28,987 nucleotides of DNA from a virus, in the IMG/VR virus record IMGVR_UViG_3300032046_002904, positions 1 through 28,987 of that record. The stretch is one strand, 5' to 3'. A program made the position numbers and the translations under genes. This document shows positions 8,643-28,738 of this stretch, one piece after another (positions within the stretch are counted from its first letter, which is position 1; each line of letters starts with the position of its first letter). Below the pieces are notes generated by a model, which was not told the origin of the DNA, did not search any database, and saw only the letters and a program-made list of their open reading frames with translations.

Positions 8643-9983
8643 TCACCAGTCATCCTTCTTCCTTCCATATACCTTCTTTGGACTCTTGAGTTCTATGAAA
8701 ACTCCCTTCTGAGATGACATAGAATCTTCCTTCCAGAGAGCCATCATTAGAGCACAAGTTAGATCATCTCTTCTTCCTATGTCGAATCGATACTTCTTCA
8801 ACTCTTCTTTTATGTCCTTATGCTCATCATAAAGCTCCAGTTTTCCTGCCTTCATTATCCTTCTGAGATTGTGGATCATCTGAGTCTTTCGACCCAACTC
8901 CTGCCCATTGATTATTGTGTAAGGGATCTTGACATTCTCCTGGGCATATTCACTTGGAGCAAATGGCCTGTAGTCAATATTCACAATCTTCACTTTCATG
9001 TCAGTTAGGATCTGATTGATTTCAGGCAGACATTCTTCAATTGTTATAGGAGTTTCCCACTTTCGAGTTAGATAGAGCTTGTTCCTCTCTTTCAATACTT
9101 CAACTATGACTAGTGAAATAGGATCTGCCTTTCCCTCAGAAAGATCCAGACCAGCAATGAGATCTCCACCTTCTAGATATGCTGACCCAGGAATAGAACA
9201 TTTGGGAAGGAATTCTCTGTATAGGAATTTGGTGCTTACCTTAGCAGACTCTCCAAGCACATCTGTATAGTATTCTGCTGAAGTCTCTCCTAGGACCTTC
9301 TTAGCAATCATAACAGCCATTTCATTCCAAGGAGTATCAAGTTTGCTCCAGTTATAGAGCTTCCAGCCTTTCTCTTGCTCTTCAGGCTTGGAACATAAGT
9401 CATCGAAGTATGAGTCCTCTTCAGGAGTTGAAAGGAGGATCAGTCTGCAGATCCCTTGCATTCTACCAAGACAGTCTTTGATTGCACTCTCTTTAACCAG
9501 ACCGGCCTCATCCACTATCAGGAGATCACAATGTGGTCCCTTGATCTGTCTAGAGGTTGCTCCTCTGATCAGAACCTCTGAAAGATTGTCCTTGAACTGG
9601 AATCCATCTTCTGGAATATCATGGTAGATTCCTCTTGTCACAAGCCTGTCATTGGATCTGTCATCCTTAGTGGAATCAGGACCATCAGGATCAAGGCGCA
9701 GGAGTTCAGGATGCTCTCTGAAGATTCTTCTCAAATGAGACCATAATTCTTTAGTCTGGGGAGTGATAACAAGAACTCTGATCGGTCTCTTAAGCTCTTT
9801 TGAAACTTCAGTGATAAACCAGAGAATGAGAATGGCTGCTGATAGTGTCTTGCCACAGTTAGTACCAGAAGAAACCAAGACCAACTTAATGCCAAAATTC
9901 ATCATATCTAGAAAGAAACTTTTCTGTGGAGGAATAGGATCAAAATCTGTCAAGTCCTTGAAGTAACTGTTCAAGTTCTCCAA
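8643..9983 (-). CDS. terL: Terminase large subunit
   Basis: A 446-aa packaging motor with ATPase and nuclease halves. Walker A is SSGTNCGKT at residues 38-46; Walker B with the catalytic glutamate is LLIVDE at 154-159, and STPE near 185-188 looks like the coupling motif. The RNase H-like nuclease has D280 in GLDLSEG, D337 in VNIDY and the pair D406-D407 in RRDDLTCAL. It uses ATP to pump the genome into the procapsid through the portal and cuts concatemers. The length is normal. Its start overlaps the end of the Cas4-like gene by 13 bases. No small terminase subunit is obvious nearby. Confidence 0.93.
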   Translation of the reverse strand: MENLNSYFKDLTDFDPIPPQKSFFLDMMNFGIKLVLVSSGTNCGKTLSAAILILWFITEVSKELKRPIRVLVITPQTKELWSHLRRIFREHPELLRLDPDGPDSTKDDRSNDRLVTRGIYHDIPEDGFQFKDNLSEVLIRGATSRQIKGPHCDLLIVDEAGLVKESAIKDCLGRMQGICRLILLSTPEEDSYFDDLCSKPEEQEKGWKLYNWSKLDTPWNEMAVMIAKKVLGETSAEYYTDVLGESAKVSTKFLYREFLPKCSIPGSAYLEGGDLIAGLDLSEGKADPISLVIVEVLKERNKLYLTRKWETPITIEECLPEINQILTDMKVKIVNIDYRPFAPSEYAQENVKIPYTIINGQELGRKTQMIHNLRRIMKAGKLELYDEHKDIKEELKKYRFDIGRRDDLTCALMMALWKEDSMSSQKGVFIELKSPKKVYGRKKDDW

Positions 9984-10663
9984 GATTCTCTGCTCCTAAC
10001 TTCATTTTGGAAGTAATCGCATTGATCCCTGACTTCTTTACTGCAGCATCTACAGATCTTTCTTGCTAATGGTACTGGAGGATACTTCATAGGTTTTAAC
10101 CCAAGCCAGGTGTCAATAATAAAACTCAGGATCTCTTCGATATCATCCAAAGGAATTGCATCCTCTTCGAACATAAACTCCTCAGGCTCTTGTTGATACC
10201 ATAGGATGCTATCACGATCGTGAAACTTAAGGCCAAGCGAATCAAGACTAGGACCTGCTAGCCACCGGTAGATCTGTACTTGGAAGATGGCATGTTCTCT
10301 TTGCCACAGGGCAGGTCTTTCTTGCCCAGTAGTCTTGAACTCAATTAATGAGATCTTCTTCCCTATGATCTTCCCAGTAGGATCTTTCTCGTAGATAACA
10401 TCGAGAGCATCAGGTTTCCCAACTATAGTGAAGCCCTTGAATTCTCTTTCTATGCCATACTTGCATCCAAGGTGATAGAAGTAGAGTTGTCTATCCCAGG
10501 ACTTAGATAAGAATTCTCTCACGAGTCTCTCATGCATCTCAATCCCCTTGAGTCTATACTTGCTCTTTCGTTCTCCTGAAGGAAGCACTTTCTTATAGCA
10601 TAGGAAGTAGGCTTTCTTAGGACACGACAAGTACTCTACAATAGCCCACACAGGGATCTTCAA
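9971..10663 (-). CDS. Cas4/RecB-like PD-(D/E)XK nuclease
   Basis: A 230-aa nuclease of the Cas4-like family. The active-site set is H44, D85 in GKPDALD, E108-F-K110 in LIEFKTT, and the QxxxY motif Q128-IYRW. Four cysteines suited to a 4Fe-4S cluster are in place: C14 in YLSCPKKAYF and C204, C207 (or C206) and C215 in the C-terminal C-R-C-C...C segment. Family members degrade DNA ends or trim spacers. No cas1, cas2 or CRISPR array is present in the window. Start is TTG at 10663 with GAGGT about 9 bases upstream. It sits between the capsid and terminase genes and overlaps the latter, so it may process DNA for packaging or recombination, or interfere with host CRISPR adaptation. Confidence 0.85.
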   Translation of the reverse strand: MKIPVWAIVEYLSCPKKAYFLCYKKVLPSGERKSKYRLKGIEMHERLVREFLSKSWDRQLYFYHLGCKYGIEREFKGFTIVGKPDALDVIYEKDPTGKIIGKKISLIEFKTTGQERPALWQREHAIFQVQIYRWLAGPSLDSLGLKFHDRDSILWYQQEPEEFMFEEDAIPLDDIEEILSFIIDTWLGLKPMKYPPVPLARKICRCCSKEVRDQCDYFQNEVRSRESWRT

Positions 10664-10731: not shown

Positions 10732-11580
10732 TTATCTGTTATACTTAGCTACAGCAGTTCCCCTTAGCACTAGTCTACCCATGCGCTCTCTGGCCCTTAT
10801 GCCCATCTTGCCTGTCTGACCATTCTCCCAGTCTTTTATCTCCAGATCTGAGCGGATAGCCAAAACAGCTGCAGCAGTTGCATCAATACAGAAGATAGTG
10901 TTCGCTATGCAGAGACTCGTTACAAGAATCTTGCAACCTAATAGAAGACTTCTGAGACCGCTGCCCAGTACTTGTTCCTCGGTATACAGAGAACTTGTGA
11001 ACTTCTCGTCCTTTAATAGTTCACCATACAATTCTGGTGTCATCACTATTACTGTTGGGACATAATCTCCACCCTTGACATCAGTGACCATTGCACTTAG
11101 GTCAGCCATGGTTATTGTTCCTGCTAGAGTGCCTATCGTTCCACCGGCCAAATCACCGGATGAGATAGCTCCAAACATGGCGAAGATGTCAGCAGTCTCT
11201 TCCTTTCCTATTGCTGTGCCAACACCTTGGATCTGTCTTTCTACCACACTGAATGGAACTTCCTCGATGAATCCTTCAGTCCAACTCTGGCCTGAGAAGA
11301 CTCTTCGATTCACATCAACAGTTCCATAGGTATAGGATTCGCCCTCATCAGTATCAGCATCATAGGTGTCATTTGTAACTATAGTTGCACTGCCAATTCC
11401 AGCTTTGGGTACCAGCAAGGTCAACTGATCGGTCTCAATGACCCACATCAATTCTCTGCCTATTGCAGCAGCTTTTGCAGCCTCAGATATGACCTTAGCC
11501 ACACCAACAGCCGCAGGACCCGCAGTCAAAGCTAGCTTTTCATTAAAGCGCTTGTAGATTTTCTCTTCAATCTTTGTCAT
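10732..11580 (-). CDS. Major capsid protein, HK97-fold type
   Basis: A 282-aa protein fitting an HK97-type major capsid protein. It has an alanine-rich N-terminal helix (residues 15-42), an extended E-loop region with a gly/thr/asp-rich stretch (NDTYDADTDEGESY), and a long alpha/beta centre. The C-terminal segment is typical of the fold's P-domain: LAIRSDLEIKDWENGQ, then an arginine-rich GRLVLRGTAVAKYNR. A strong ribosome site, AGAAGGAGAT, precedes the ATG. It follows the protease/scaffold gene, as is usual for capsid modules. It would form the icosahedral shell. Confidence 0.82.
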   Translation of the reverse strand: MTKIEEKIYKRFNEKLALTAGPAAVGVAKVISEAAKAAAIGRELMWVIETDQLTLLVPKAGIGSATIVTNDTYDADTDEGESYTYGTVDVNRRVFSGQSWTEGFIEEVPFSVVERQIQGVGTAIGKEETADIFAMFGAISSGDLAGGTIGTLAGTITMADLSAMVTDVKGGDYVPTVIVMTPELYGELLKDEKFTSSLYTEEQVLGSGLRSLLLGCKILVTSLCIANTIFCIDATAAAVLAIRSDLEIKDWENGQTGKMGIRARERMGRLVLRGTAVAKYNR

Positions 11581-11637: not shown

Positions 11638-12807
11638 TTACTTCTTGTGCTTATTGATTATTTGCTTAATCTCACCGACTAGACGAACTGCTCCTTCACT
11701 CTTCCACTGTCTAACGAGATTAGAATCTTTTAGAACCTTGAGGTTCTCTAAGTCAACAAGGATCTCATTCCTTGTCCTTTCTACTGCATCCTTGACTTCC
11801 TTCACTTTGTCAGCTTCAAGTTTGGTCTGGTTCTCTCTACCAAGATCTACTGACTTCCTCAAGTTCTCGACCTCAGTCTTGAGACCTTCCATCTCCTTAA
11901 CAAGAGCAGCTTCCTTGCAGGGCTCACATGGTTCCTTTGGAACTTCTGCCTTAGGGATTTCCTCTTTCTTCGGAGTCTCAGCTAAAGTCTCAGTTGCTTC
12001 CTCTTTTATAGGCATACATTTACCTTCCTTCTCATCCCACACTTCTCCTTCTGGGCATCCATAGTCAGCTTTCTTCTCAGGTGCCTTCTCTGGATACTTT
12101 GGATAGTATGGATAGTACTTGCCTTCTTGCTGGTCATAGTAATAATATGGATACTTGTGAGGATAGCCATAGTAAGGATAGACATATGGGTACTTCTTCT
12201 GAAGTTCCTCTACTTCCTCAACTGAATGCAGTTCCACAATAGCAAAGAGTTTAGGATTCTCTTTCGTCTCTGTCTTCTTCTCTTCAATCAACTTCAATTT
12301 CTCCTTCAATTCAATATGTTTTGTAGAGCTAAATTGCTCCTGGGTTATATCTGATAACTGTTCCTTTGATATGATGAAGCAGGTCTTACATGCTGGACTT
12401 TGAGTCAAGGACAGTTCATCAAACGAGAAGTCATGTCCTTCGACCTTGCCATCAGGTAATGTCAACTTGTTCATCCATGAGGATACGCTCACGAAGTCAT
12501 AGTCCTCTATTGGAAAGTCCTCACCTGTGATCTCTGCCTTGAATAGAATTGCCTTGAGCAGAGGATTATATGCAGACTCAGTTACTTTCCCAATTGTCCT
12601 TCTAGATTCAAGTTCATGTTCAATCTTGATAGGTATTCCAAGCAGTAAACTGGCAGCTCTCTCCAACTCACTTGCTGGATAGAATACTCCCTTCCATTCA
12701 CCCTCAGCAAGAGCTACTCCTGAGATGAAGAGTTTACCCTCTTCTCTCTTGACAATGACAGGGTTTGAAAGTCTCTCTTGTATCAGTTCAGAATGTACAT
12801 CTATCAT
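11638..12807 (-). CDS. Prohead protease (XkdF-like) fused to scaffold
   Basis: A 389-aa protein. Residues 15-145 resemble phage prohead proteases of the XkdF/S78 type: H64 in IPIKIEHEL, followed by IGKV, the strand YDFVSVSSW with candidate nucleophilic serines, and ELSLTQSPA, a hallmark of the family. After a linker, residues about 205-240 are a tyrosine/proline-rich stretch, followed by a small disulphide- or metal-type motif (CPEGEVWDEKEGKC). The last 100 residues are a coiled-coil typical of scaffolding proteins. The protease would clear the scaffold from the procapsid. The ATG at 12807 is preferred to GTG 12819 because AAAGGAG then has proper spacing. Confidence 0.75.
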   Translation of the reverse strand: MIDVHSELIQERLSNPVIVKREEGKLFISGVALAEGEWKGVFYPASELERAASLLLGIPIKIEHELESRRTIGKVTESAYNPLLKAILFKAEITGEDFPIEDYDFVSVSSWMNKLTLPDGKVEGHDFSFDELSLTQSPACKTCFIISKEQLSDITQEQFSSTKHIELKEKLKLIEEKKTETKENPKLFAIVELHSVEEVEELQKKYPYVYPYYGYPHKYPYYYYDQQEGKYYPYYPKYPEKAPEKKADYGCPEGEVWDEKEGKCMPIKEEATETLAETPKKEEIPKAEVPKEPCEPCKEAALVKEMEGLKTEVENLRKSVDLGRENQTKLEADKVKEVKDAVERTRNEILVDLENLKVLKDSNLVRQWKSEGAVRLVGEIKQIINKHKK

Positions 12808-12852
12808 ATTACATGACACTCCTTTAGTACTAGCATTTCCTCATTATTATAA

Positions 12853-14580
12853 CTAGCCATCTAGTAACTCCTTCAATACCTTGAATCCTTTCTTCCCTCT
12901 GACACTAAGTCTAAGTGCAAATTGTGCTACTGGCTTCCCTATGAGTGGAATCTCTTCAACTAATTGGGTGAAAGGAAATCCTTGTATAGGGACTGGAATC
13001 TCAAACTCTTCGTAAGGATTGCCCAGAGTAGGAATTCTCTGTACGATCCTCCATTTCTTCCCTACCTTAGAAGGTAGAATCGCCTTAGGAATTAGTATCT
13101 CTTCCAGGATGATATCGAGTTGTCCAAGAAGTTCAAGAACCGCTATCTGAACTTTCAGTGGGATATGGATGAAGTCCTCCGAAGCCAGTAGTTCTGAACA
13201 GACTCTCTGGAGATCCTTAATTCTGCTTTGGATATCTTTTCCACCAAGACCCTCAATGATGATTCTCTGGAGTTCTTTGATCCTGGATCTACTATCAGCA
13301 AGATCTAATTCCTCAGTCCTAGTCCTCACTATGATCTTAGTTCTTGACCAGACATCTGTTGTTCCTAGTTTCTCAATCACAGTTCTAATAATTGGTGTTT
13401 GCCTGGCTAGAAAGCAAGAGACTCCTAGCAACTCTACAAAGGTTCTCATGAGACTCTTGGAACTAATTCTTGAATCTAGGAAGACTAAGGACTCAGCAAG
13501 ACTTCTTTGCAGAGTTTTGATTCGACTCTGTGAATCCTCAAGATCAAAGATCTCAATTAGAGTTTTGAAGATTCTGAGGACATGTTTCTTGATGAAGAAG
13601 TCTTGCATCCCAAATGATTCGATAGTTTCAATAGAGGTCTGCCTGTATCCCCAACCTCCGTGGCTTGGTTCAGGACTTATGTGCTTGAATAATATCAAGT
13701 CATCTATAAAAGAATCCATCCGGGACTGAGTACCTGTCCAAACTGTCAAGTTAGTTATGTCAGTTAAAACATTGTAGAATGGGAGACTACTTCCTTTCAG
13801 TACTCCATCTATGTAGATATCAAATGTATCTGTACTGCAATCGATAATGAGGAGTAATCTATACCAGATATTTGGATAATACTTTTGGATGTTGGAATGA
13901 TTCCCAGAAGGAAGGATGTATGTTATCCAACCATTGTTCCAAAACTCTATGACTGGCCCAGCTAGCCTTGCTGCATCTTCAAAGAGTAGAGTAAAGGTTG
14001 TACCGTTCTGATTGGACCGTACCATAATCTCAGACTTGAATCTTGTCTGATTCGAGAATGGCCTATAAGCTTGCACATAGGCTTGTCTCGAAGAGTCTCT
14101 GAACATGAGTGAACGGGAAGGAGAAACATAAGGATCACTAACAGTTCTTATTTCTCCACCTTGTTGTGTTTCTAGGATCCAGTTAGTAGGAGCTTCACTA
14201 TCACCCTGTTCATCAAAGTCTTGTCCTATGATGCCAGTATTTCCAATGCTAGATGCCGAGATTGCATCTGCCTTCCCGAAGTAAATGTAGATGGTGACTG
14301 CACTTGTGTTGAGATCGTCTGTTATCCTCACCCAAATGATAGCGTTATTTGAATTAATCTTCTGTTCTATCCAGTAAGGCAGAAGTGTGGTCTCATCATT
14401 ATCAGAGAACCGGATGTCCCCGAAGTCTGTTCTACATCCACTGTTTAGGTAGACATCTCCAGCCGTATCTATGCCAGAGCCATAATGAACAATGATCTTA
14501 ACTTGGTAACCTGTTCCTGCCTCGCTTGCAGGATTGATCACATGGCTTTTGCGATACTTCCATCCCGTTAACCATGCCAT
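12853..14580 (-). CDS. DUF2341/lectin adhesin with 20-aa repeats
   Basis: A 575-aa protein. Residues 5-110 are a DUF2341 domain (W-K-Y-R-K-S-H start, T-I-Y-I-Y-F-G-K-A-D end). Residues 125-320 are a concanavalin A-like (LamG-type) lectin, ending FIDDLILFKHISPEP. Residues 336-475 are seven 20-residue tandem repeats of the type R-x-x-x-E-x-L-x-x-x-D-x-x-S-R-x-K. A short C-terminal tail follows. There is no signal peptide. Such modules occur on surface and virion proteins and probably bind host glycans. Its first 320 residues are clearly related to the 840-aa protein at 22538-25051. It lies just upstream of the protease/scaffold gene. Ribosome site GGTGGAG precedes the ATG. Confidence 0.75.
   Translation of the reverse strand: MAWLTGWKYRKSHVINPASEAGTGYQVKIIVHYGSGIDTAGDVYLNSGCRTDFGDIRFSDNDETTLLPYWIEQKINSNNAIIWVRITDDLNTSAVTIYIYFGKADAISASSIGNTGIIGQDFDEQGDSEAPTNWILETQQGGEIRTVSDPYVSPSRSLMFRDSSRQAYVQAYRPFSNQTRFKSEIMVRSNQNGTTFTLLFEDAARLAGPVIEFWNNGWITYILPSGNHSNIQKYYPNIWYRLLLIIDCSTDTFDIYIDGVLKGSSLPFYNVLTDITNLTVWTGTQSRMDSFIDDLILFKHISPEPSHGGWGYRQTSIETIESFGMQDFFIKKHVLRIFKTLIEIFDLEDSQSRIKTLQRSLAESLVFLDSRISSKSLMRTFVELLGVSCFLARQTPIIRTVIEKLGTTDVWSRTKIIVRTRTEELDLADSRSRIKELQRIIIEGLGGKDIQSRIKDLQRVCSELLASEDFIHIPLKVQIAVLELLGQLDIILEEILIPKAILPSKVGKKWRIVQRIPTLGNPYEEFEIPVPIQGFPFTQLVEEIPLIGKPVAQFALRLSVRGKKGFKVLKELLDG
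13156..13575 (-). repeat. Seven 60-bp repeats coding for 20-aa units
   Basis: Residues 336-475 of the 575-aa adhesin repeat with an exact period of 20. The consensus is a hydrophobic helix or strand with R-x-x-x-E-x-L-G, followed by D-x-x-S-R-I-K. Units have diverged at the DNA level. The same motif, as E-L-F-G-L-x-D-S, recurs in the 840-aa protein near 22595-22906. Confidence 0.7.
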
Positions 14581-14591: not shown

Positions 14592-14888
14592 CTACTTAAG
14601 AATGACTTCCTCTCCCCTGACGAGTAGGTCTATCTTGAGAGCACTCTTTATCTGAAGATTAGGAGTCCATCTCACTACCAACTTAGTAATTTGTCTAGGA
14701 CTGAGAGCCCTAGGACTCTCTATCACTTCGACATCTTTATTCTTGAAGGAGAAGTTTAGATTCTTCAATAGGGTATCTCTCTCATTGAGAAGATACACTG
14801 TCATTTCCTTGCTTTGCCCTATCTCCACTTCTCCAAAATCTATCTGGGAGATCTCTTCCTTCAGTTCAGGGTCTCTATACATCTTCAC
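14592..14888 (-). CDS. Ig-like (ASH/Hydin-type) virion protein
   Basis: A 98-aa beta-sandwich protein. The pattern I-D-F-G-E-V-E-I-G-Q-S-K-E-M-T-V-Y-L, then two more strand pairs and a W-x-P near residue 73, resembles the ASPM-SPD-2-Hydin family of Ig-like domains. The start is GTG at 14888, with GGAGGAG about 8 bases upstream; an ATG lies two codons later. It overlaps the preceding gene by 14 bases. Small Ig-like proteins often decorate capsids or tails; here it sits between the phosphoesterase gene and an adhesin gene. Confidence 0.55.
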   Translation of the reverse strand: MKMYRDPELKEEISQIDFGEVEIGQSKEMTVYLLNERDTLLKNLNFSFKNKDVEVIESPRALSPRQITKLVVRWTPNLQIKSALKIDLLVRGEEVILK

Positions 14889-16731
14889 TTTGATTCTCCT
14901 CCTTCAATATCTTCTCCATTAACTCTAACTTCTTCTTCTTCAGAGCCATGTCTAACTCACTGGTTTCTTTCTGGACCTTGTCCTCTATCCTTGAGAATTC
15001 CCATCCACCTTCAACTCTATTTGCCTTGAATACTCCCTTGAATTTCTGTCCTTCTACCCTTAATGTGATCTCATCTTCTGTCTGCCCTAGAATCTCCAGA
15101 GTTCCCGAATCCAAGCAGTCAATGTATGTCTCGAGAGGCCCAACTAATCTGAAGAGATGAGTTCCTTCAGTGACCATCCATAACTTGAGAGTCTCTGGGT
15201 CTTCATGAACATCCTTCACTCTAGCGAATGCTTTCTCTCCTACATCTAACCTACGAGGATCTTTGTAGATGTTGATCTCTTGCTTGTGATCACTAGCCAG
15301 CTTCCATCTTAGATCATAGTGTTCCTTGATTCCATTTCCATAGTGCTTGTGCAAGACAAACTCATGTCCTGTTGATAGACTTTCAAGTGTATAAGTAGGA
15401 GTTCCTTTCTCCTCTTGAATTAGTCTGAAGTTCCCCTTCAGTTCTGTGCCCTTCAATTCTAGATCATAGATAGTCTTTCCTGTCTCATCTGTTGATTCCT
15501 TGATATTGCAGTCTGCTAACTCTAGGACTTTATGGTATGCTCTAAGTTCCTTGTTTGGATTGTATGGTGTACTTGGAGATAGTTCTCCCTCATAGTCTAG
15601 CCACTTCTTGTTGATTCTCCCTTCACCCATTGCTCCTACTGGGAGAACTCTCAATGGATTGTCGGTCAACAGGAAGCCTAGCACCTTAGCACTTCCATCA
15701 TCTATTCTTAGATAGTATTCTCTCTCAGCTTGTCCTCTCACATGAACTGGACCTAGCCAACTAATCTCAATGACACTGAATCTTGCCTGGGCCAGGTTCT
15801 CAGTTAAGGTTGCTTTCCATATCTTGAATTCCTCAGAGTCTCTCTGGTCAGGTGGAACTGGAATGACACCCTTTGGAGGTTTCCAGTCTTTCTTCATTCC
15901 CCTCTCTAGGGCATATGCCACTTGGTCTTCTGGCACCATGAATCTCCATATTATCTCATACTTGCCTGGGATCTTCTTCCTTGTCTCAGGATCCAATAAA
16001 GGCAGTCTAAGTCCTCTGACAACTACTCGTACATACTTGTCTTTCTTTAGTGGACCTGTATCTCTATCAGACTTATAGAAGAATTCCTTGAAGTAAGGCT
16101 TCTGTGCTCCTTCCCAGAAGACTCCCTTGGATACGATCTTGAACTCTCCAGCTTCTCTTTGAGTTGCTCCAATCTCGCCTGGCTCTATCTTGCCTTCTAC
16201 CTCTAACCAATCCTTAGGCTGTGTGAGTTTCCATTCGATTCTCTGTCCCTTGTTTATCTCCCATTTATCAGGGGTAACTGGTTCCTTTACCGAACCTCCA
16301 ACCACTTCATAGCCAACTAGGAATCCATCCCATTCCATTCTAACATCAGTATGTTGAGAGTCTCCTCTAATGTGTGACTGCATGACATACCTTCTCTTGG
16401 ATGCCTCAGTTGGATATTCCTGGTCTGTTCCTATCTGGAGTCTCTGGTAGTAATAATCCTTGACATAGGCACATCTGAAATGATCAGCATAGATACACTT
16501 GACAGGGAACTTGAGGTTGGTTAGCCAGTAGAATGGTCTGCAGAATCTTTCCTTCAGAACACACTTCTTAGCATTGTGGACATGTGGACAGACAGGCATG
16601 TATGTCAATCCTGCTCTCCAGCCAGTCCCAACTGCTTCCAGTCTCTTGAAGAACTTATAGTCATCTGGTTCTGTCTTGGATGACTTAGAGACAACCAAAG
16701 GAAACATCCAACTTATAGTCCTCTTAACCAT
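14875..16731 (-). CDS. Protein with two LigD-type 3'-phosphoesterase domains
   Basis: A 618-aa protein. The ATG at 16731, which overlaps the HNH stop, is preferred to an upstream TTG. The first phosphoesterase (PE) domain begins YVMQSH120-x6-H127-T-D129-V-R131, with EVEGKIEPGEIGAT (about 177-190) matching the conserved F-E-G-x-I-P-x-G-x-Y-G-x-G of LigD PE domains. A second PE-like unit begins FVLHKH463-x7-H471-Y-D473-L-R475. Both halves contain a terminal strand of the form G-x-x-x-K-G-x-F-x-x (LKGNFRLI at about 431; FKGVFKA at about 564). The N-terminal 95 residues have a cluster of cysteines and histidines (CPHVH...C...C...C...C) that could bind zinc or iron-sulphur. PE domains remove blocked 3' ends before ligation. 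The gene is co-transcribed with the HNH and ligase genes. Confidence 0.72.
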   Translation of the reverse strand: MVKRTISWMFPLVVSKSSKTEPDDYKFFKRLEAVGTGWRAGLTYMPVCPHVHNAKKCVLKERFCRPFYWLTNLKFPVKCIYADHFRCAYVKDYYYQRLQIGTDQEYPTEASKRRYVMQSHIRGDSQHTDVRMEWDGFLVGYEVVGGSVKEPVTPDKWEINKGQRIEWKLTQPKDWLEVEGKIEPGEIGATQREAGEFKIVSKGVFWEGAQKPYFKEFFYKSDRDTGPLKKDKYVRVVVRGLRLPLLDPETRKKIPGKYEIIWRFMVPEDQVAYALERGMKKDWKPPKGVIPVPPDQRDSEEFKIWKATLTENLAQARFSVIEISWLGPVHVRGQAEREYYLRIDDGSAKVLGFLLTDNPLRVLPVGAMGEGRINKKWLDYEGELSPSTPYNPNKELRAYHKVLELADCNIKESTDETGKTIYDLELKGTELKGNFRLIQEEKGTPTYTLESLSTGHEFVLHKHYGNGIKEHYDLRWKLASDHKQEINIYKDPRRLDVGEKAFARVKDVHEDPETLKLWMVTEGTHLFRLVGPLETYIDCLDSGTLEILGQTEDEITLRVEGQKFKGVFKANRVEGGWEFSRIEDKVQKETSELDMALKKKKLELMEKILKEENQSEDV

Positions 16732-17140
16732 GATATAACATCCTCGCTCTTTCAATAAACTGATGATTCATACAGAGAATCCTATAACCTTCTGGATAGT
16801 TATTCTGTCTGATCCAATTGTAAAAGTCAATTCCGCTAACTCTTCCTTTCCTATGTCTTCTAGTTGCCCCTATGGACTTCCTGTGAGCATTTCCTCCACC
16901 TTTCACATGGTCCAGAGTAAGAGCATCTAAGTTGAAGCAAGAGCAGAGAGCACACTTTGGAACTCCACCTGAATAATGGCTTAGGACTTCTAGCTTTATC
17001 TTCTGAGAATACTTCCTTCTATTTCTCAACTTCCTTTCTCTCTCTGATTGTATATTCTGGTATCTCCATCTCTCATATTCTGAATTATCTCTACCATCCA
17101 AGTACCTTGGAGGCTGGTTCAACTTTCGATGATTAGGCAT
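16724..17140 (-). CDS. HNH endonuclease-like protein
   Basis: A 138-aa protein. The basic N-terminal helix (about residues 20-50) is followed by C63-A-L-C66, the strand LTLDH78-V-K-G-G-G, H86, and C123-M-N-H126 with FYNWIRQNNYPEGYRIL between. This is the zinc-binding HNH layout common in phages. Its ATG overlaps the ligase stop as TAATG, and its end overlaps the phosphoesterase start by 8 bases. It could be a free-standing homing-type nuclease that has inserted in the operon, or a working part of the ligase cassette. Confidence 0.75.
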   Translation of the reverse strand: MPNHRKLNQPPRYLDGRDNSEYERWRYQNIQSERERKLRNRRKYSQKIKLEVLSHYSGGVPKCALCSCFNLDALTLDHVKGGGNAHRKSIGATRRHRKGRVSGIDFYNWIRQNNYPEGYRILCMNHQFIERARMLYHG

Positions 17141-19395
17141 TATCCTTCCTCCTCGATGTACTCCAAAACTTGCACTGGACGCACTACCAGAATCTCTCCT
17201 CTCTCAAGTCTAAGAGATGTAGAGTAACTCTCTCCAATGTAGGCATAGTAGTTACCATTAATTTCCTCCACTCTCTTAAATTCATCCTTCATACTAGCTG
17301 GAATTTGAATCCCACATTCATAAGTGTACTGATCCATCTCCTTGCCTTCAGCAGTCTTCTTAGGAACTCTCTTCAGTACTATGACATCAATCTCCTTAAG
17401 GTTCTTTACCTTAGCCATATCGTTGGTTCTGCAAGATGATTGTGCACACTGGGTCTTGTAGACTCCTGTGGAATCCTTAACCATTGCACCTTCAGATCCT
17501 GGCATTGTCCTGACATCTTCTACTGCCTTGAAGAATTCTTGCTTATTCTCCACTATAACTGAAGGGATTGCTTCAAAGTGCTTGAGACTTCCAGAGATCA
17601 AACTCTGAAGGGCTCTATATCTCTCTCCATAGCCCTTATCCACCAACTGTTCTTCATTCAAGTAAGTGACATCATGCACATGGAATACTACATTCTTGTC
17701 ATCTAGAGACTCCGGCTTTGCATTGATCCACTTGATCATCTCTTCTCTTTTGAGTGCCTTTCCTTCATTGTCATATTCAACCATCTCAGCATGAATTATG
17801 TAAGTTCCTGAGATCTTCAACAGTTCTTCTCTTGACTTCTTGAAGGCATCCTGCCTATCGATATGAGAGTCTTCAGTAAAGAACCTAACCTCATCTCCCT
17901 TCCTGTGTATCTGGAAGTACATGCCATCATACTTCTTCTGAACATGCAGCTTATGTGCTATCCTTTCCTCTGCCCATTCTCTCCATAGAACATCTGCATC
18001 CCAAACTTCAGTCTCTTTCTCAGGCTTCTGGTTCTTGTGGTAAGTAAGGGGCTTGAGTTCTGCTAGGATCTCCCAGGGACTTAGTCTCTTGTTGATGGTT
18101 GACTTCTTATAGTCATAACTATAGAGTGGATATGAATAGCCAATCATTGGTCCTCTGAGGTCAAAGGTGACATGAAGTCTCCTAGCTATTGCTGGGTCTG
18201 TGCAGACATTCTTGATAAAGTAGACCAATCCCTCTAGGTACGGACCCTTGATGAGAATGTCAATGTCATGGTTAGAAGGAATCTTCCCCTCATTCACAAT
18301 CCTGCCAATCAGAAAAATAGGTATAGGTGGAAAATCCGAAGGCAGTGTGTCAGGGAATGATCCTACCACCTTGTCTAAGGTAATCTCCTCTTGTAAACCT
18401 TCTGGTGAAGGATACTCTACTATGAAGATCTGCATCTGCTTCTCAAGATCATCTTTCCAGTCTGGGATCTTGATGCCTCGTTTCCTCAACTCTTCCTCTA
18501 CGAATATTGCCGCATTGACAAGGTCTTCATTGACTCCAGAGTCCTTGCCAGTCTTGTGTAGGAAAGCATCGAGTGCCTTCAGTTCCTCATCACCTAAACC
18601 CTTGCAATAATCTGCAGTGATATCAGTAATGTTGACTGCTAGTGGAGTCAGATGCTTCATCTTTCTCTTCTCCATCTCAGCAACAATGAGGCTATGAATG
18701 TGCTCTATCATCTTCTTCTGTTCAGGTAATGCGAATGGACTCCATTGCTTCGATTCAATCTTGATTCCTTCTCTCATCCTGTTAGCAAAGATGTGGGCAA
18801 GTCTGTGATCATTGACAAGCACCTGGTCTGTCAGAGGAGCAGGATCATACTTGGCAATGTCTTCAAGAAGAATGACTTCCTCTCTATCGAGTTCATCTAG
18901 ATCTTGATGTTCCTTTCCTCTTCTCCTCAGTTCTGCATGAACCAAAAGGTGCAGGTCTAGATTGCATAAAGTATGAGCTAACAGGTGCTTAGCTTCTAAG
19001 TCCTGGTCTGATATCAGGAACTCTATATTCTTTGAATCTACGAATGTCTGGACTCCCTGAGGAATCTCCACACCTCTAGGAACCTTGTAGTTCTCTAGGA
19101 ACTTATATTCATAAGCAAAGAGTGGGAATATCCAGCCCCATGCCTTGATTTCTTCTGGAGTAATCAGATGTTCCTTCCTTCTATTCTCGAATTCAACCTT
19201 CCAGATCTTCCTCATGGATGTGAGTTCCAAGATACCATAACAGAGTTTACCCTCTATGAGATAGAGTGGAATATTGAGCATGTTGGGGAATTCCTTCTCC
19301 TTTACGATCAGAGTCTTCTTCCCAGTCCAGACTAGGTTACCATGTGGCTTCACTAGGTACATTCCCTTCTCAGGCAATATTTCATTACTGGACAT
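17140..19395 (-). CDS. ATP-dependent DNA ligase fused to NTase-like domain
   Basis: A 751-aa protein. Residues 470-675 form an ATP-dependent ligase adenylation domain: motif I K488-Y-D-G, motif III A536-E537 in HAEMVEYD, motif IV E635-G-A-M-V-K640, motif V K662-V-K664. An OB-type C-terminal region ends GEILVVRPVQV; motif VI is not evident. Residues 361-383 read G364-R-I-V-N-E-G, then D377-I-D379-I-L-I-K, the pol-beta nucleotidyltransferase pattern. Residues 1-118 form a beta-rich domain (KTLIVK, CYGILEL, H-L-I-T-P-E-E, PQGVQTF) that may be ASCH-like. The protein would seal nicks after end processing by the neighbouring phosphoesterase protein. Its start overlaps the end of the 110-aa gene and its stop overlaps the HNH start. 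It is far longer than typical phage ligases because of the N-terminal 470 residues. Confidence 0.8.
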   Translation of the reverse strand: MSSNEILPEKGMYLVKPHGNLVWTGKKTLIVKEKEFPNMLNIPLYLIEGKLCYGILELTSMRKIWKVEFENRRKEHLITPEEIKAWGWIFPLFAYEYKFLENYKVPRGVEIPQGVQTFVDSKNIEFLISDQDLEAKHLLAHTLCNLDLHLLVHAELRRRGKEHQDLDELDREEVILLEDIAKYDPAPLTDQVLVNDHRLAHIFANRMREGIKIESKQWSPFALPEQKKMIEHIHSLIVAEMEKRKMKHLTPLAVNITDITADYCKGLGDEELKALDAFLHKTGKDSGVNEDLVNAAIFVEEELRKRGIKIPDWKDDLEKQMQIFIVEYPSPEGLQEEITLDKVVGSFPDTLPSDFPPIPIFLIGRIVNEGKIPSNHDIDILIKGPYLEGLVYFIKNVCTDPAIARRLHVTFDLRGPMIGYSYPLYSYDYKKSTINKRLSPWEILAELKPLTYHKNQKPEKETEVWDADVLWREWAEERIAHKLHVQKKYDGMYFQIHRKGDEVRFFTEDSHIDRQDAFKKSREELLKISGTYIIHAEMVEYDNEGKALKREEMIKWINAKPESLDDKNVVFHVHDVTYLNEEQLVDKGYGERYRALQSLISGSLKHFEAIPSVIVENKQEFFKAVEDVRTMPGSEGAMVKDSTGVYKTQCAQSSCRTNDMAKVKNLKEIDVIVLKRVPKKTAEGKEMDQYTYECGIQIPASMKDEFKRVEEINGNYYAYIGESYSTSLRLERGEILVVRPVQVLEYIEEEG

Positions 19396-19708
19396 ATGAT
19401 AACTCCTTATTGTCTTCCTTCTCCAATCCCTTGCTCTGCATCTGCCTCGTAGCTTTCAGATCCAATTCCAGGAACAGTACAGCATACTCTCTCATCCTCT
19501 CAAAGTATCCAGCCAGTTCCTCTTTGGAGAATTTAGCCATGATACCTGGAGACTTGATCCAGCTATGCCAACCAATGGTGCTTCCATGGATGTTGTATAG
19601 ACTCTGCTCTAGTGCACTCATGAATGCTAGCCTATCGCTAGGATTCAGTTCCTTGAGCTTCCTAATCTCTTCCTCGACTTCTTTTATATACTCCTTCAGT
19701 TTACTCAT
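19385..19708 (-). CDS. Small helical protein coupled to ligase gene
   Basis: A 107-aa mostly helical protein: a charged N-terminal coiled-coil (KLKEYIKEVEEEIRKLKEL), then a tryptophan-containing segment (IHGSTIGWHSWIKSP), and two further helices. The ATG at 19708 is preferred over GTG 19717 because GGTGAT then serves as ribosome site. It overlaps the stop of the 943-aa hub gene and the ligase start. I do not recognise the family. Its tight coupling suggests a partner of the ligase or of the tail. Confidence 0.6.
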   Translation of the reverse strand: MSKLKEYIKEVEEEIRKLKELNPSDRLAFMSALEQSLYNIHGSTIGWHSWIKSPGIMAKFSKEELAGYFERMREYAVLFLELDLKATRQMQSKGLEKEDNKELSYVQ

Positions 19709-19709
19709 T

Positions 19710-22541
19710 CTAATCACCAGCAGGATAATCTTTTGCTAATACCATCAAGTCTTTGTCAACAGAAGCTGCTTTGATTGATGCTCGATCTCTATCTTGAAAG
19801 TCCGGATTACTTGCTTTAAGAATTGCAATGTAAGCATCTGCAGGGCCAATTGGAACACTATTTGTCAGGTCATCAGTAAGGCTTAGAGTAGTGGTTGCTC
19901 CACTTATCCCAAAGGCATGTGTAACTTCTGTAATTCTAAATCCGCCTGGGTGAGTGTTCTCATCGATATTGAATCCAGTCTCTTTCCTGCATGCTCGGAT
20001 CATAACTAATTGTCCTGGCAATATCAAGGGGTCAAGAGGAATCTGTATTATTCCTGTTAATGGAGTTTTCATCGCTCGAATCAACTCAGCCTTGGCTACC
20101 TGGCCCAGAGGGCAAGAATCATCTTCTGCATCTTTATACTGATAGGTTTCAGAAAGACTGTCTGTAATCAGTTTCTCCTTGCATCCATGTTTATCTATAC
20201 TCGTGCTATTGTAACTTACACGAACAATTTTTCCATTGATCCTTAAGCCATCTACCCAGCAATGTTCTTCTCCCGCATGAAAACCAGCATCGAAACTGAA
20301 GCCAACATAAGATATGGCAGACCAATCTCTTGAACTCCACTCATCTTTTGAGTTTGGTCCTATCTCTATTTCAACAAAGACCCATTCATTTTCCTTAACA
20401 CCTTTCCTACTTAGATCAAATTCTATTCGTGATTCCCAGTTAGTGCCAAATATGAAGAAAATCTTATGATTGGAAGTTGCTCCTCCAACCTTGAACCAGA
20501 AGGTAACAGTTGGAACATTCTTCTCGGAACCTAAGTAGTAAGTTTGGAAACTAAGAGGACATCTGAATCTATAAGTTGCCATCTGCCAACTAGCTAATTG
20601 AATGCATTGCAAACCTACTCTTGGATCGGCAGTGCTATTGTAGATTTTTCCATCAGACTGTTGGTGTTCCCATTGATTGGCATTCCCTTCACAGATCATA
20701 TCATTGCCTCCAAGTTTCACAATGCGATTCACAATCACTCTATTTGCTTCCATCTCTGACTTACGGAACTGGGTAGTGATCATTTCTTTCTTCACTTCAA
20801 TTGGAGTGATGCGAGACCAGGTTGGCCAGACATCGTTGATATTATATTCTGTTGTTATCCCCGAGACATTGTGATTTCCAATAGGAGCCATGCAAAGTTG
20901 TCCATCAGGAAGGACTATCCAGTGGATACCTGGGTTAGGATAACTTGCTGCTGCAGCTATACTCGTAATGTCATTGATACAATTGAAGGCTGGTTCATAC
21001 TGGAAGTTGAAGAACTTGAATTCATAATCCCAGTTCCAAATATAATCTGTGTTAAATTCCCATTTCGAGGGAACTCTGCCTGAACTTCCCAGATATTTCT
21101 CTACATACTTAGGAATGATCCCCACTATCGAATTAGTCATGATTTGTCGGAGTGTGGATATGCTTCCATCATGACCCCAACCTTTGTAGTACCAACAAGC
21201 TGAACTTACAGTAAGTCTAGCTGAGGTCGAATCTGTACCATAGAGAGTTATCTCCATATTATAGTCATTTAGATTGTCAATATCTATTGCATCCTTACAA
21301 TCATAGATATACCATTCCCAACCGCCAGTGATCTTCTTAGGAGGTAAGAAGATAGGAGGTGCAGGGAACGGACCAGAATCAGTCAAAGTAACAGTGATGT
21401 AGCATTCACTACTTGGTGGATCCACCTTAGCTCTAATCTCTAGCCATAGATAATCTACAAGTAAGAAGCTGCGAGGTTCCGTATCCACAAATCTAAATTT
21501 GCCTTCTGTCTTTCCAATTCCACCTTTCACTGTTCCTTCGACATGCAGATAAGCGTAAGTTACTTTGATTCCACCCTTCCCACTGCCTCCACCACTGACT
21601 GATTCCACTTCAATCTTCAGGCGGGCATTATTGATTTTGTTCAGTGTATCTAAACAGGAGAAGTTGAAGGTAACAGTTTCCCAATCTGTTGATGTAAAAG
21701 GCCAGGCTCCACTCCACCAGGTTGATCCATCCCAGCAATAGAATCTAAGAGTCATACTAGCATGACCATTCACCCCATCAAATAGTTTCGCCTTAACTTT
21801 TAATGAAACAGCAGAGACCGAGAATTCACCTGAAGGCAGACCTAGAGTTTCAAATTCATAGTATTCATCATAATGACCAACAGCAGAAGGATCTGCTATC
21901 TCAGTGATGTAGTTACTCTCATCATCATCATGCAACCATGGGCTGTCATTGACATGAGTAAAATCATTGTGGATAAAAGTCCAATTAGCAACATGAAGAT
22001 CGTCATTTACTGAAGTTGTCAACCAGTCAACATAGATGTGATCAGAATCACCATCTTGTAGGAAGGGACTGCTGCCCACCAGATTCCATTCATGGGTAGA
22101 GGTTGTATACTGGTCAACGAAATAATTATCATCAAATATGACTTTATTCATGAATCCATACTTACTTTCAGTTCCATACTCCTCAGGAACTCGCATTCTC
22201 TTGAGTCCCACTCCAGTTCCATAGGCTTTCACTGAGCAGATCTCACCTTTTATGTTCATTTCTGGTTGAAGTTCAACCACCTTTCCTTTGAATAAAATGT
22301 GCCAAGAATCTCCAGGTTTATCTTTATACTTGAACTTAACCGTGACCTCATCTTCCAAGTCAACTGTCCCAAGGAAAGTCTTGCCCTTCTCATCATTAGC
22401 AATTAACATTGCATCCCATATCTTACTCTCCCTCTGAGTTACTTTTGTAGTTATGCAGTCTTCAAGGATGGGATCTTCTTTACCATTGATGAGAGTTTTT
22501 CGAATGATCTCGGTTTCTTCCGGCTCTTTCATTTCCATCAT
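19710..22541 (-). CDS. Tail hub/tip protein with lectin-like inserts
   Basis: A 943-aa protein whose two ends resemble a tail hub: residues about 25-120 (DAMLIANDEKGKTFLGTVDL, then WHILFKGKVVELQP) and 810-905 (GIIQIPLDPLILPGQLVMI, FRITEVTHAF). Between them lie two beta-sandwich segments rich in W, S and T (about 140-465 and 620-780) that look like carbohydrate-binding modules, and a hub-like region around 475-600. It would sit at the tail tip and contact the cell surface. Its ATG overlaps the previous stop as ATGA. No peptidoglycan or pseudomurein hydrolase motif was seen. Assignment is by composition and context. Confidence 0.6.
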   Translation of the reverse strand: MMEMKEPEETEIIRKTLINGKEDPILEDCITTKVTQRESKIWDAMLIANDEKGKTFLGTVDLEDEVTVKFKYKDKPGDSWHILFKGKVVELQPEMNIKGEICSVKAYGTGVGLKRMRVPEEYGTESKYGFMNKVIFDDNYFVDQYTTSTHEWNLVGSSPFLQDGDSDHIYVDWLTTSVNDDLHVANWTFIHNDFTHVNDSPWLHDDDESNYITEIADPSAVGHYDEYYEFETLGLPSGEFSVSAVSLKVKAKLFDGVNGHASMTLRFYCWDGSTWWSGAWPFTSTDWETVTFNFSCLDTLNKINNARLKIEVESVSGGGSGKGGIKVTYAYLHVEGTVKGGIGKTEGKFRFVDTEPRSFLLVDYLWLEIRAKVDPPSSECYITVTLTDSGPFPAPPIFLPPKKITGGWEWYIYDCKDAIDIDNLNDYNMEITLYGTDSTSARLTVSSACWYYKGWGHDGSISTLRQIMTNSIVGIIPKYVEKYLGSSGRVPSKWEFNTDYIWNWDYEFKFFNFQYEPAFNCINDITSIAAAASYPNPGIHWIVLPDGQLCMAPIGNHNVSGITTEYNINDVWPTWSRITPIEVKKEMITTQFRKSEMEANRVIVNRIVKLGGNDMICEGNANQWEHQQSDGKIYNSTADPRVGLQCIQLASWQMATYRFRCPLSFQTYYLGSEKNVPTVTFWFKVGGATSNHKIFFIFGTNWESRIEFDLSRKGVKENEWVFVEIEIGPNSKDEWSSRDWSAISYVGFSFDAGFHAGEEHCWVDGLRINGKIVRVSYNSTSIDKHGCKEKLITDSLSETYQYKDAEDDSCPLGQVAKAELIRAMKTPLTGIIQIPLDPLILPGQLVMIRACRKETGFNIDENTHPGGFRITEVTHAFGISGATTTLSLTDDLTNSVPIGPADAYIAILKASNPDFQDRDRASIKAASVDKDLMVLAKDYPAGD

Positions 22542-25051
22542 GCCTTCACCACATCGACTTCTATTTCTGGTTTCTCATAGAATTTGAATATCCTACTTAC
22601 CTTCACGGCTAGAGGCATCTTATCTAGGAAACCCTGGATCTCTTCCACTAGGATCTTCAGAGCTCTATTGTGGGTCTGGCTGTCTACCTCTTCCAGTATC
22701 TCATACAGAGTCCTGTGGATTCCTTTTGTTCTTGTCTTGGAATCAGCCAGACCGAAGAGTTCAACCACAGTCAGATAAGTCTTGGGTACTAGAACAATAA
22801 TCGAATCCACTAGGCCAAAGATCTCTGTAACTGTCATTGGAATAGAGGTCCATTTGAACTTGGAATAAGAATCAAGAAGCCCGAACAGTTCAGTTTTAAT
22901 TAGTGAAATCAGACCTCCAACCTGCTTATAGTCATAGAAGATGACATAATTCGCTATTTCAGTCCCTTCAGTGTAGACATAGTCCAACCTCGAAGTGATA
23001 ATGTTGCTTTCTGGATAGAAACTCCATCTTTGATTCGGAAACTGAGAATTTGCATTGCTTTGAGCAAGAGAGATGTCTGACCAAGATACACCAGATACAC
23101 TTCTGTGCCACAACCTATAGAAGTCTGAATAGGCTGTAGCCTTGCCTGACCAGAATACATGAACTTTATCATTCCCCTGGATGGAGATACTAGCATCCTG
23201 TTGAATCATAGTATCCATCCCTGGAAGAGTACTAATGCGAAGTGGAGAAGACCAACTTCCATCATATTTGACATACCAGATCTGAGTCTGAGTCGAAAGG
23301 GGATAGGAGGTACTCTGTCCATGGAAGGTCACATGAAGATTATTAGAACTGTCAATTGCCATTGTTGGATGGTATCTATTATAGTCTCCCAGTCCAGTAT
23401 CAATTGCAACTGGGGTACTCCAGGAAGTGTCATATCTTGTGTAGAAGATTCTGCTAGCTCCAGTAGTAATGTAATAGGTCACATGAAGATAATCATTCCC
23501 ATCTACTGTCATTTGTGGCCCGGATCCTGTGGCTGAGTCAATCTGGTATGGAGTACTCCAGCTAGTATCATATTTGGTGTAATAGAGTAAATTCCCAGAA
23601 GTCAGATAAACTACATGAAGATAGTCATTGCTGTCAACAGCTATGCTGCATGTGAAATAAATGTACACTGCTTGGGAACTAATCTTGATGGGAGTAGACC
23701 AACTCGTTGTCTTCTTAGAATAGTAAAGCCAAGAACCAGTGTCTCCAGTTCCCTTTCCTGCCCAGATGACATGAAGGTTGCCAGATGAATCTACAGCTAT
23801 TGCAGGTTCATATTGGCTATAATTATCCATTCCAGTTGCTGTGCTTATCCTTGTCTCATCAGTCCAGTGTTCTCCTTGATCAGTGCTTTTCTTGACATAA
23901 ATCTGTGCAGTGCTGGGACCTGTCAGTATCTTCTGATAAACCACATAGAGTGTTCCATCAGACAAGCGGGTAAGAATTCTTCTTGTTGGTGCGGCAGTTG
24001 GATAGCTAACTGCAGATTTTGATATCCCTGTCTTTATGGAAGATGAATCAAGCAATCCAAAGAGTTCAGTGACAGTCTTATAGTCAGTAGGTATAAGTTC
24101 CTCTTCTTCACTTCCCCAAGCACCATGTGCTGGTTCTGGAGTGATGAACTTGAATATTGCCAGATCATCTAACCAAGCATCCTGGGTTGTAGCAGTACCT
24201 GTGTCTATGTCAAGATCAGCTATACCACTGACAGCATGCCAGAATGATAGTTGGTCACCTATCTTGACTCCATCTCTATAGAGATCAAACTTATCGGTGT
24301 CTGTGTTTATAATGAAGAGTAGTTTGTACCATGTGTCGATGCTGTAGGTTACAAGATTGTGAGAAGTACCATCATAATAAGTTAAGTAACCATTCGAATC
24401 CAGTGCGAATGCTATTGCTTCATTTCCTGGGGAGAATGTGTCACCAAACCGAAAGGCTGTGGGTGAATTAGTGTTGTTCTTCCTTACTTTGACAGCAACT
24501 TTCAGTCTCGTCTGGCTTGCGAATGGTCTATGGGCCAACACATAGTCTGAAGTCGAGTGATCATGGATGTTAAGTGAAAGACTAGCTGAATAGTATTGGA
24601 CATTATCAACTTCAATAGTACCCCCGGATTCTCTGGTTAGAACCCAGTCTGTAGGATTGGCTCCATCGCTTTGCTCATCGAAGTTCTGTCCAACTATTCC
24701 TGTGGTTGCAATGTTAGATACTGAAGGAGCATCTGACTTACCATAGTAGATATAGATTGTTGAGGAACCAGGACTGATAGGAATTGTATCCATCTCAACA
24801 TAGATCTGTGCTGAAGTCCCTGGGACATACGATTCTACCCACTGATCCAGGAGAGTTATTCCATCTGAGGTTGTGACACGGATATCATCAAAGTCATCCT
24901 GGACATTGCTTCCAACGAAGACTATGCTTCCACTATCTGATCCAGTTGTCTTCCTGACATCAAGCAGCATCTGGTATAGAGACACAGCTGAGAATGTTGA
25001 GCCAGTGACAACATGACTCTTTCGATAGGCCCATCCAGCTAGCCATGCCAT
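22538..25051 (-). CDS. DUF2341/lectin/beta-propeller adhesin
   Basis: An 837-aa protein. It begins MAWLAGWAYRKSH, matching the 575-aa adhesin; the ATG at 25051 is chosen for that match and for the AGGTGA spacing. Order: DUF2341 (about 5-120), LamG-like lectin (130-320), one E-L-F-G-L-L-D-S unit near 325, then a six- or seven-bladed propeller (350-710) with repeats of the form A-V-D-S-x-x-x-L-H-V-x-Y and T-S-W-S-T-P. One clear Asp-box is S-T-D-Q-G-E-H-W. About five ~20-residue E-L-F-G-L-x-D-S repeats close the protein (715-820). The propeller is sialidase-like, but no catalytic residues can be claimed. Likely a receptor-binding tail fibre. It overlaps the hub gene by ATGA. Confidence 0.72.
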   Translation of the reverse strand: MAWLAGWAYRKSHVVTGSTFSAVSLYQMLLDVRKTTGSDSGSIVFVGSNVQDDFDDIRVTTSDGITLLDQWVESYVPGTSAQIYVEMDTIPISPGSSTIYIYYGKSDAPSVSNIATTGIVGQNFDEQSDGANPTDWVLTRESGGTIEVDNVQYYSASLSLNIHDHSTSDYVLAHRPFASQTRLKVAVKVRKNNTNSPTAFRFGDTFSPGNEAIAFALDSNGYLTYYDGTSHNLVTYSIDTWYKLLFIINTDTDKFDLYRDGVKIGDQLSFWHAVSGIADLDIDTGTATTQDAWLDDLAIFKFITPEPAHGAWGSEEEELIPTDYKTVTELFGLLDSSSIKTGISKSAVSYPTAAPTRRILTRLSDGTLYVVYQKILTGPSTAQIYVKKSTDQGEHWTDETRISTATGMDNYSQYEPAIAVDSSGNLHVIWAGKGTGDTGSWLYYSKKTTSWSTPIKISSQAVYIYFTCSIAVDSNDYLHVVYLTSGNLLYYTKYDTSWSTPYQIDSATGSGPQMTVDGNDYLHVTYYITTGASRIFYTRYDTSWSTPVAIDTGLGDYNRYHPTMAIDSSNNLHVTFHGQSTSYPLSTQTQIWYVKYDGSWSSPLRISTLPGMDTMIQQDASISIQGNDKVHVFWSGKATAYSDFYRLWHRSVSGVSWSDISLAQSNANSQFPNQRWSFYPESNIITSRLDYVYTEGTEIANYVIFYDYKQVGGLISLIKTELFGLLDSYSKFKWTSIPMTVTEIFGLVDSIIVLVPKTYLTVVELFGLADSKTRTKGIHRTLYEILEEVDSQTHNRALKILVEEIQGFLDKMPLAVKVSRIFKFYEKPEIEVDVVKA
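22595..22906 (-). repeat. E-L-F-G-L-x-D-S coding repeats in 837-aa adhesin
   Basis: Five units spaced 20-22 residues apart (K-T-E-L-F-G-L-L-D-S, T-E-I-F-G-L-V-D-S, V-E-L-F-G-L-A-D-S, Y-E-I-L-E-E-V-D-S, E-E-I-Q-G-F-L-D-K). They are homologous to the seven units in the 575-aa adhesin but less regular in spacing. Confidence 0.65.
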
Positions 25052-25060
25052 CATACTCAC

Positions 25061-28477: not shown

Positions 28478-28738
28478 CTATTCCTCTCTGATAAGTTTCC
28501 GTTTGATTGCCAAGATAGTGAAGAATTGTAATGCAGCAGCAATTCCACCAGCGATGATTCCTTTCTCTCCCTGTAAGCCGACTGTTGAAGTTCCAGCTAT
28601 CGTGGTGAAGAAGGTTATAGCTGAGAAGATACCAGCATCAAGAATTGCATCAGCCCAATCGAACTTGGCAGTTTCTTTGGGTTCTGGATTGCCTTCCACA
28701 ATTCTAATCAACTTTCCATATCTACTTAGTCTGCTCAT
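28478..28738 (-). CDS. Two-TM small protein, holin-like
   Basis: An 86-aa protein with a basic N terminus (S-R-L-S-R-Y-G-K) and two hydrophobic segments, about residues 31-54 and 58-77, ending in a K-R-K tail. This is the size and layout of a small holin, but the position directly after the portal also suits a head or DNA-ejection protein. No endolysin is identifiable to support lysis. Its ATG overlaps the portal stop. Confidence 0.55.
   Translation of the reverse strand: MSRLSRYGKLIRIVEGNPEPKETAKFDWADAILDAGIFSAITFFTTIAGTSTVGLQGEKGIIAGGIAAALQFFTILAIKRKLIREE

Follow-up and report, generated by a model that had tools for sequence, protein, structure and literature searches.

Why should a virus place genes for processing and sealing DNA ends among those for its capsid and tail? 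The question is raised by record IMGVR_UViG_3300032046_002904, all 28,987 bases of which (the window) were analysed. Its minus strand encodes large-terminase, HK97 capsid, portal and tail-type genes, and the same strand carries, at 14875-19395, the genes singled out in a first-pass annotation: a protein with LigD-type 3'-phosphoesterase (PE) domains, an HNH protein and an ATP-dependent ligase with an added nucleotidyltransferase (NTase)-like domain. Those coordinates proved correct, and the set is indeed flanked by a large tail-operon protein and the HK97-type major capsid protein. Because the first and last 460 bases of the record are 98% identical (1-460 versus 28528-28987, a direct repeat), the window fits a complete genome of about 28.5 kb, circular or terminally redundant; the 9 mismatches in the repeat are those of such a genome assembled from a mixed population. 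The features considered here, all on the minus strand, are as follows.

8643..9983, minus: terminase large subunit (PHROG 2, 1.8e-15)
10732..11580, minus: HK97-type major capsid protein (Pfam Phage_capsid, 6.5e-6; PHROG)
11638..12819, minus: XkdF/DUF2213/assemblin-like putative prohead protease with invariant His and Ser (profile comparison, alignment)
12853..14580, minus: DUF2341 protein, presumed surface or tail protein (domain match)
14592..14888, minus: 98-aa Ig/ASH-like protein (downstream neighbour of PE in about 8 relatives)
14875..16731, minus: PE protein, 618 aa when started at the ATG and 626 aa at a TTG upstream of it (ORF, Pfam, AlphaFold, fold search)
14995..15360, minus: PE-C, with H471, H479, D481 and R483 (model and alignment)
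15343..15783, minus: PE-B, a PE fold without metal ligands (model and alignment)
15817..16407, minus: PE-A, with H128, H135, D137 and R139; Q179/W183 replace His84/Tyr88 (model and alignment)
16471..16590, minus: conserved Cys cluster C56, C65, C72, C87 and C95, putative metal site (alignment)
16660..16713, minus: counterpart of ligase motif VI, SWMFPLVVSKSSKTEPDD, N-terminal in the PE protein (alignment)
16724..17140, minus: free-standing homing-type HNH protein, 138 aa, between ligase and PE (ORF, homologues, overlaps)
17140..19395, minus: NTase-ligase protein, 751 aa (ORF, Pfam, AlphaFold model, fold search)
17158..17394, minus: ligase OB domain, residues 668-746; the frame ends before motif VI (alignment)
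17401..18036, minus: ligase adenylation domain, residues 454-665 (Pfam, fold match, motif conservation)
18094..18384, minus: Pol-beta-superfamily NTase domain, residues 338-434, DxD D377/D379 (DxD conservation; weak NTP_transf_2 match)
18394..19002, minus: helical domain, residues 132-334 (alignment and model)
19385..19717, minus: DUF2153 protein, 110 aa, overlapping the ligase start (Pfam, 4.4e-7)

Domains and active sites of the ligase and PE proteins

The ligase protein matches Pfam DNA_ligase_A_M (E 3.6e-21), and its AlphaFold model, in which confidence is low for the first 125 residues, matches archaeal and human DNA ligases in a fold search (E about 1e-14). The ATP-dependent ligase domain expected of a LigD is thus present in the window. 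Motifs I (K488-YDG), III (E537), IV (E635-G636) and V (K662/K664) of the ATP-dependent DNA ligase superfamily lie in the adenylation domain. Motif VI (RxDK), intact in several relatives and degenerate in the clade of the window, is absent from the ligase chain and occurs as a degenerate KSSK on the PE polypeptide.

The PE protein matches NCBIfam LigD_PE_dom (TIGR02777) at 1.3e-6 and Pfam LigD_N at E=1e-4, the latter under Pfam's own cut-off. Its AlphaFold model, built from a 29-sequence alignment, consists of three tandem beta barrels with pLDDT mostly >85, confidence being low for the first 110 residues; rows from the archaeal virus ANMV-1 were excluded from the structure-prediction alignments. 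The best PDB matches of the barrels are LigD PE structures (3p4h, 3n9b, 3p43 and 5dmp, probability 1.00). No significant match to the PE protein was obtained in a BFVD fold search, and PHROGs holds no family for PE. The DNA-ligase and LigD PE folds anticipated for the two proteins were therefore recovered, and the LigD-type identity of the PE domains is upheld by profiles and PDB matches; their number, given earlier as two, is three PE-like folds. The catalytic His/Asp/Arg arrangement is kept in the predicted structures of PE-A and PE-C (His-His-Asp plus Arg) and lost in PE-B, from which the HxDxR motif is absent. A profile-profile comparison of the three domains was set aside, as iteration had mixed them.

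Single-sequence scans of viral contigs yielded one relative of the PE protein and none of the ligase protein. Alignment-based queries returned 15 and 49 loci, about 50 in total, and about 45 distinct PE-bearing modules, from divergent virus contigs, were left once near-identical loci had been dropped. The set includes ANMV-1, a virus of methane-seep archaea (ANME), and contigs binned with MAGs of Archaeoglobales, Thermoprotei and Omnitrophota, which may be hosts, with the caution usual for binning. Cellular genomes seldom carry the family: it occurs in 7/295 and 4/300 genomes of two archaeal phyla, three of the latter four matches being frames of 125-145 aa with PE-C only.

Relatives are about 20-40% identical to the window proteins, and their active sites, ligase motif V included, are still near-invariant. 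The NTase DxD is kept in 40-41 of 41, the motif I Lys in 43/43, the motif III Glu in 43/43, the motif IV EG in 44/44 and the PE-A H/H/D/R set in 44-45 of 45; since most loci were collected by peptide patterns around VQKK[FY]D, EITL or QKP[HY][YF][HK]E, counts at those motifs are inflated, other columns being unaffected. PE-C is found in about half of the modules, with its triad in 21-23 of 23. This near-invariance in NTase, ligase and PE-A makes the proteins look like enzymes, and the earlier description of an ATP-dependent ligase with an added NTase-like domain stands on the Pfam match, the fold and the DxD.

The PE-A site is nevertheless not that of LigD. Six residues characterize the LigD PE (His42, His48, Asp50, Arg52, His84 and Tyr88), and it is the first four that are kept and the last two that are replaced: the His84 column is Gln/Glu in 44/46 relatives and the Tyr88 column is Trp in 46/46. 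In LigD, His84 and Tyr88 hold the scissile phosphate together with Arg52 and are strictly conserved or essential (PMC4797286, PMC8656161). The replacement throughout the family indicates that the module is not LigD, and its PE chemistry may differ. These proteins would define a PE subfamily of their own, in which the phosphate pocket is altered. PE-A also has a Q218-K219-P220...E224 motif.

The module in comparison with known end-joining systems

Ligase and PE are fused or encoded in one operon in bacterial LigD (NHEJ) and in the archaeal PE-Pol-Lig operon (AP-NHEJ), as they are linked here, and separate PE, Pol and Lig genes are normal in many organisms (PMC4797286). Unlike those systems, the window has neither Ku nor a Prim-Pol, and a Pol-beta-type NTase takes their place; it also has three PE folds, lacks two of the six strictly conserved PE residues and is located in a head operon. 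Neither Ku (PF02735) nor LigD Prim-Pol (PF21686) was found in the window record, as had been stated, or in 10 relatives; the host may supply Ku. The idea of a viral end-processing and sealing set in a virion operon without Ku or polymerase is accordingly supported. That the set is a LigD taken apart is not supported, in view of the missing PE residues, a closest relative in which the two proteins are fused, and a unique split site filled by a patchily distributed, homing-type HNH gene.

Mycobacteriophages Omega and Corndog encode their own Ku and borrow the host LigD (Pitcher et al. 2006, as relayed in PMC7719229). They resemble the window virus in using end-joining chemistry for genome circularization, if such is its use here, and differ in that the window virus supplies the ligase and PE itself, without a Ku. 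An annotated counterpart is ANMV-1 AJP62006 (KP703175), an 866 aa NTase-ligase-PE-A-PE-B fusion in a virion gene cluster, without PE-C or the Cys cluster, which is annotated solely as an 'ATP-dependent DNA ligase'. No account of an NTase-ligase-PE module was found in a limited search of open-access papers.

Linkage to the prohead protease and proposed function

The window protease candidate is putatively a divergent relative of the XkdF/assemblin-like proteases, judging from profile comparisons: hhalign places it with XkdF at 92% (E 7e-7), and 10/24 members of its family match DUF2213, matches to XkdF and S21 being weak. In cultured phages members of this protease family serve in head maturation, and their genes lie between those for portal and capsid. 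Among the 42 relatives with downstream sequence, tallied by hand, the protease is fused to the module in 7, lies within <100 bp in 20 and within <1.2 kb in 4, so that it is fused or within 1.2 kb in 31/42; in 7/42 it is 2.5-8 kb off, and in 4/42 (L003, L025, L040 and L066) it was not found. Two of the fused proteases match Peptidase_S78_2 (E about 1e-32), and the ANMV-1 module begins 7 bp past the portal gene. The survey of related viruses thus recovered both the module, in about 45 contigs, and its neighbourhood.

Phages and conjugative elements encode 'polyvalent' proteins, in which assemblin-like peptidases are always C-terminal (PMC5512222). The present proteins resemble these in joining unrelated enzyme domains in one polypeptide (NTase and ligase in the window; metallo-beta-lactamase (MBL), methyltransferase, NTase, ligase, PE and XkdF in single polypeptides of relatives), in their virion-gene context and in the C-terminal assemblin-like peptidase; they differ in that the window version is divided into separate genes. 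The main text of PMC5512222 mentions neither LigD nor XkdF, and the ligase passages found in it concern no such fusion. Among the relatives, the added methyltransferase domains are of the Dam or C5 type.

These domains, the conserved active sites, the genomic linkage, the protease fusions of relatives and the HNH gene between the two halves are the basis for reading the locus as a head-assembly-operon module of the polyvalent kind, which would process and seal DNA ends, be packaged with the protease and be delivered with the DNA. This reading is quite plausible, and is proposed tentatively. The ancestral product would have been one polypeptide, or a tightly linked pair, of the order helical-NTase-ligase-PE-PE; in relatives this is joined by a metallo-beta-lactamase or DNA methyltransferase at the N-terminus and by an XkdF/assemblin prohead protease at the C-terminus. 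Made late, together with the head proteins, the module would enter the procapsid with the protease, be cut free during maturation and be delivered with the viral DNA. After entry into the next cell, the proposed division of labour is 3'-end cleaning by the PE domains, perhaps addition or transfer of nucleotides by the NTase, and nick sealing or genome closure by the ligase ahead of replication. The protease fusions in relatives support, indirectly, a set that travels with the particle; in the window itself each of ligase, PE and protease has its own gene, and targeting by fusion cannot be invoked directly there. Also counting against the reading are the relatives in which the protease is kilobases away or was not found, the replaced His84 and Tyr88 of the PE and the degenerate motif VI of the window clade.

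The occurrence of the pair beside or fused to a protease in dozens of viruses suggests that some viruses carry a DNA repair kit in the particle. The proteins may form a new class of head-associated 'polyvalent' proteins that process and seal ends and that are possibly packaged and delivered with the genome. A broader version of the proposal, somewhat more speculative, is that undescribed head-targeted end-repair polyproteins are widespread and packaged in the capsids of archaeal and bacterial tailed viruses. Such polyproteins (NTase-ligase-PE, often with a nuclease-like MBL or a methyltransferase and the maturation protease) would repair or circularize the genome on entry, independently of Ku and with a remodelled PE site. 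If true, tailed-virus particles contain a Ku-free DNA end-repair machine, delivered via fusion or linkage to the maturation protease; this would offer a generally usable way of getting enzymes into heads, and an explanation, open to testing, of how the DNA of such viruses is healed and closed at entry.

The same enzymes, co-transcribed with the head genes, might instead act late in the cell and stay out of the particle, trimming and sealing nicks, gaps or recombination intermediates of replicated viral DNA so that terminase packages intact genomes. This is rather unlikely. It would suit the position of the window module in a late operon that also holds the terminase, the separate ligase, PE and protease genes of the window and many relatives, and the fact that in most searched records the module ligase is the only one. 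It leaves unexplained the repeated fusion to the prohead protease (7 relatives) and the presence, in the larger viruses of L045 and L066, of a second ligase, encoded elsewhere, in which the N, M and C domains that make up an ordinary DNA ligase are all present (L107 452-2095; L108 400-2127). As that second ligase is complete, the module ligase of these two viruses is not the replicative one. The main reason for preferring the head-associated role over that of a simple late ligase is that the module is linked, and has been fused repeatedly, to the prohead protease.

Mending of host tRNA, or of other RNA, after cleavage by anti-viral nucleases, as a counter-defence, or the processing of nucleotide signals is improbable. 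The MBL domains of relatives do resemble RNase Z and PhnP, the NTase belongs to the Pol-beta superfamily, and L062 and L071 give weak RNA_ligase Pfam matches; however, ordinary DNA ligases give such weak matches also, profile and structure both match DNA ligases best, and no 5' kinase was seen.

Returning to the head-associated module, two neighbouring proteins are possible further components. The DUF2153 gene directly adjoins the module in 10 relatives, and in the archaeal clade DUF2153 usually lies upstream of the ligase and the Ig-like protein downstream of PE. DUF2153 is common in cellular Thermoproteota, and its neighbours in cellular genomes have no repair link. Elsewhere in the window, a Cas4-like PD-(D/E)XK nuclease (9971-10663, minus), for which the fetched loci contain no relative, lies between the terminase and capsid genes, and 6398-7486 (plus) matches PHROG 6247 'DNA topoisomerase' (1.8e-52) and, weakly, an HTH domain at its N-terminus. 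The genome encodes three DUF2341 proteins (12853-14580, 22538-25060 and 25720-27114, minus), two of them with a sialidase-like CBM match.

The HNH gene, inteins and the ligase-PE split

The HNH gene fills the gap between ligase and PE exactly with one frame. A TAATG is shared by the ligase stop and the HNH start, and the PE ATG at 16731 sits 8 nt inside the HNH frame, which bears out the description of the genes as consecutive and overlapping. In the closest relative, L002, a single 1344-aa ORF spans both window proteins. Most relatives of the PE-C clade are split after the Cys cluster, at composite column about 740; the window alone is divided at column about 634, in the stretch that separates the OB fold from ligase motif VI, and motif VI is consequently carried by the PE protein. 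Fused as well as split states surround the window clade in the tree. The split would then be secondary, a fused ancestor being the simplest possibility, one among others.

The HNH protein was confirmed; two other viruses (L049 and L052) have homologues of it at the ligase/PE junction. An HNH motif, patchy occurrence, insertion at a conserved site and a stop/start overlap, all features of homing endonucleases, are present, and Rfam gave no match to a group I intron or other intron RNA around the gene. It is probably a homing-type element that cut the ligase-PE gene just before motif VI, and hence the ligase activity of the window probably requires reassembly of both polypeptides. A precedent is the NrdA of phage Aeh1, a working split enzyme divided by MobE, whose gene at its usual site overlaps nrdA through a UAAUGA (PMC2988022). 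The window HNH likewise breaks up a conserved enzyme at a place critical to its function, with the same kind of stop/start overlap as at the usual mobE site; its target differs, being the ligase-PE gene of an archaeal virus, and the split enzyme is putative.

The HNH protein had been counted as a member of the set, and its homologues at the junction in L049 and L052 would suit an active part in the set, as nickase or processing nuclease, rather than a mobile element. That role is improbable: the gene was not found in the other surveyed modules, homologues in L052 and L055 lie at other gene boundaries, and the window split site differs. From its distribution, the HNH gene probably stands outside the enzyme set and is more likely to be parasitizing the locus.

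Conserved enzyme active sites are the usual sites of inteins. Here about a dozen inteins, with standard junctions and LAGLIDADG domains, interrupt the NTase, ligase motifs I, V and VI and PE-A motifs in eight relatives (L053, L050, L041, L052, L054, L066, L067 and L069, the last with three); those at motif VI in L067 and L069 occupy the place where the window HNH landed. The module is thus a locus whose active-site motifs have been colonized repeatedly by inteins and an HNH element. Reuse of catalytically dead domains as structural head proteins, to which the lack of metal ligands in PE-B and the replaced His84 and Tyr88 of PE-A might point, is highly improbable and was rejected on the near-invariant catalytic residues of NTase, ligase and PE-A, along with the inteins retained at active-site motifs.

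Other loci are divided or rearranged. In L031-L034, L037 and L038 the adenylation domain is spread over two adjacent ORFs at about column 510, possibly a split ligase. In L010 (10451-15843) it lies in two ORFs 2.1 kb apart, and no significant intron RNA was found. L039 has the order NTase-PE-XkdF, with no full ligase domain detected, and L035 and L046 have the permuted order NTase-PE-ligase-XkdF in a single ORF.
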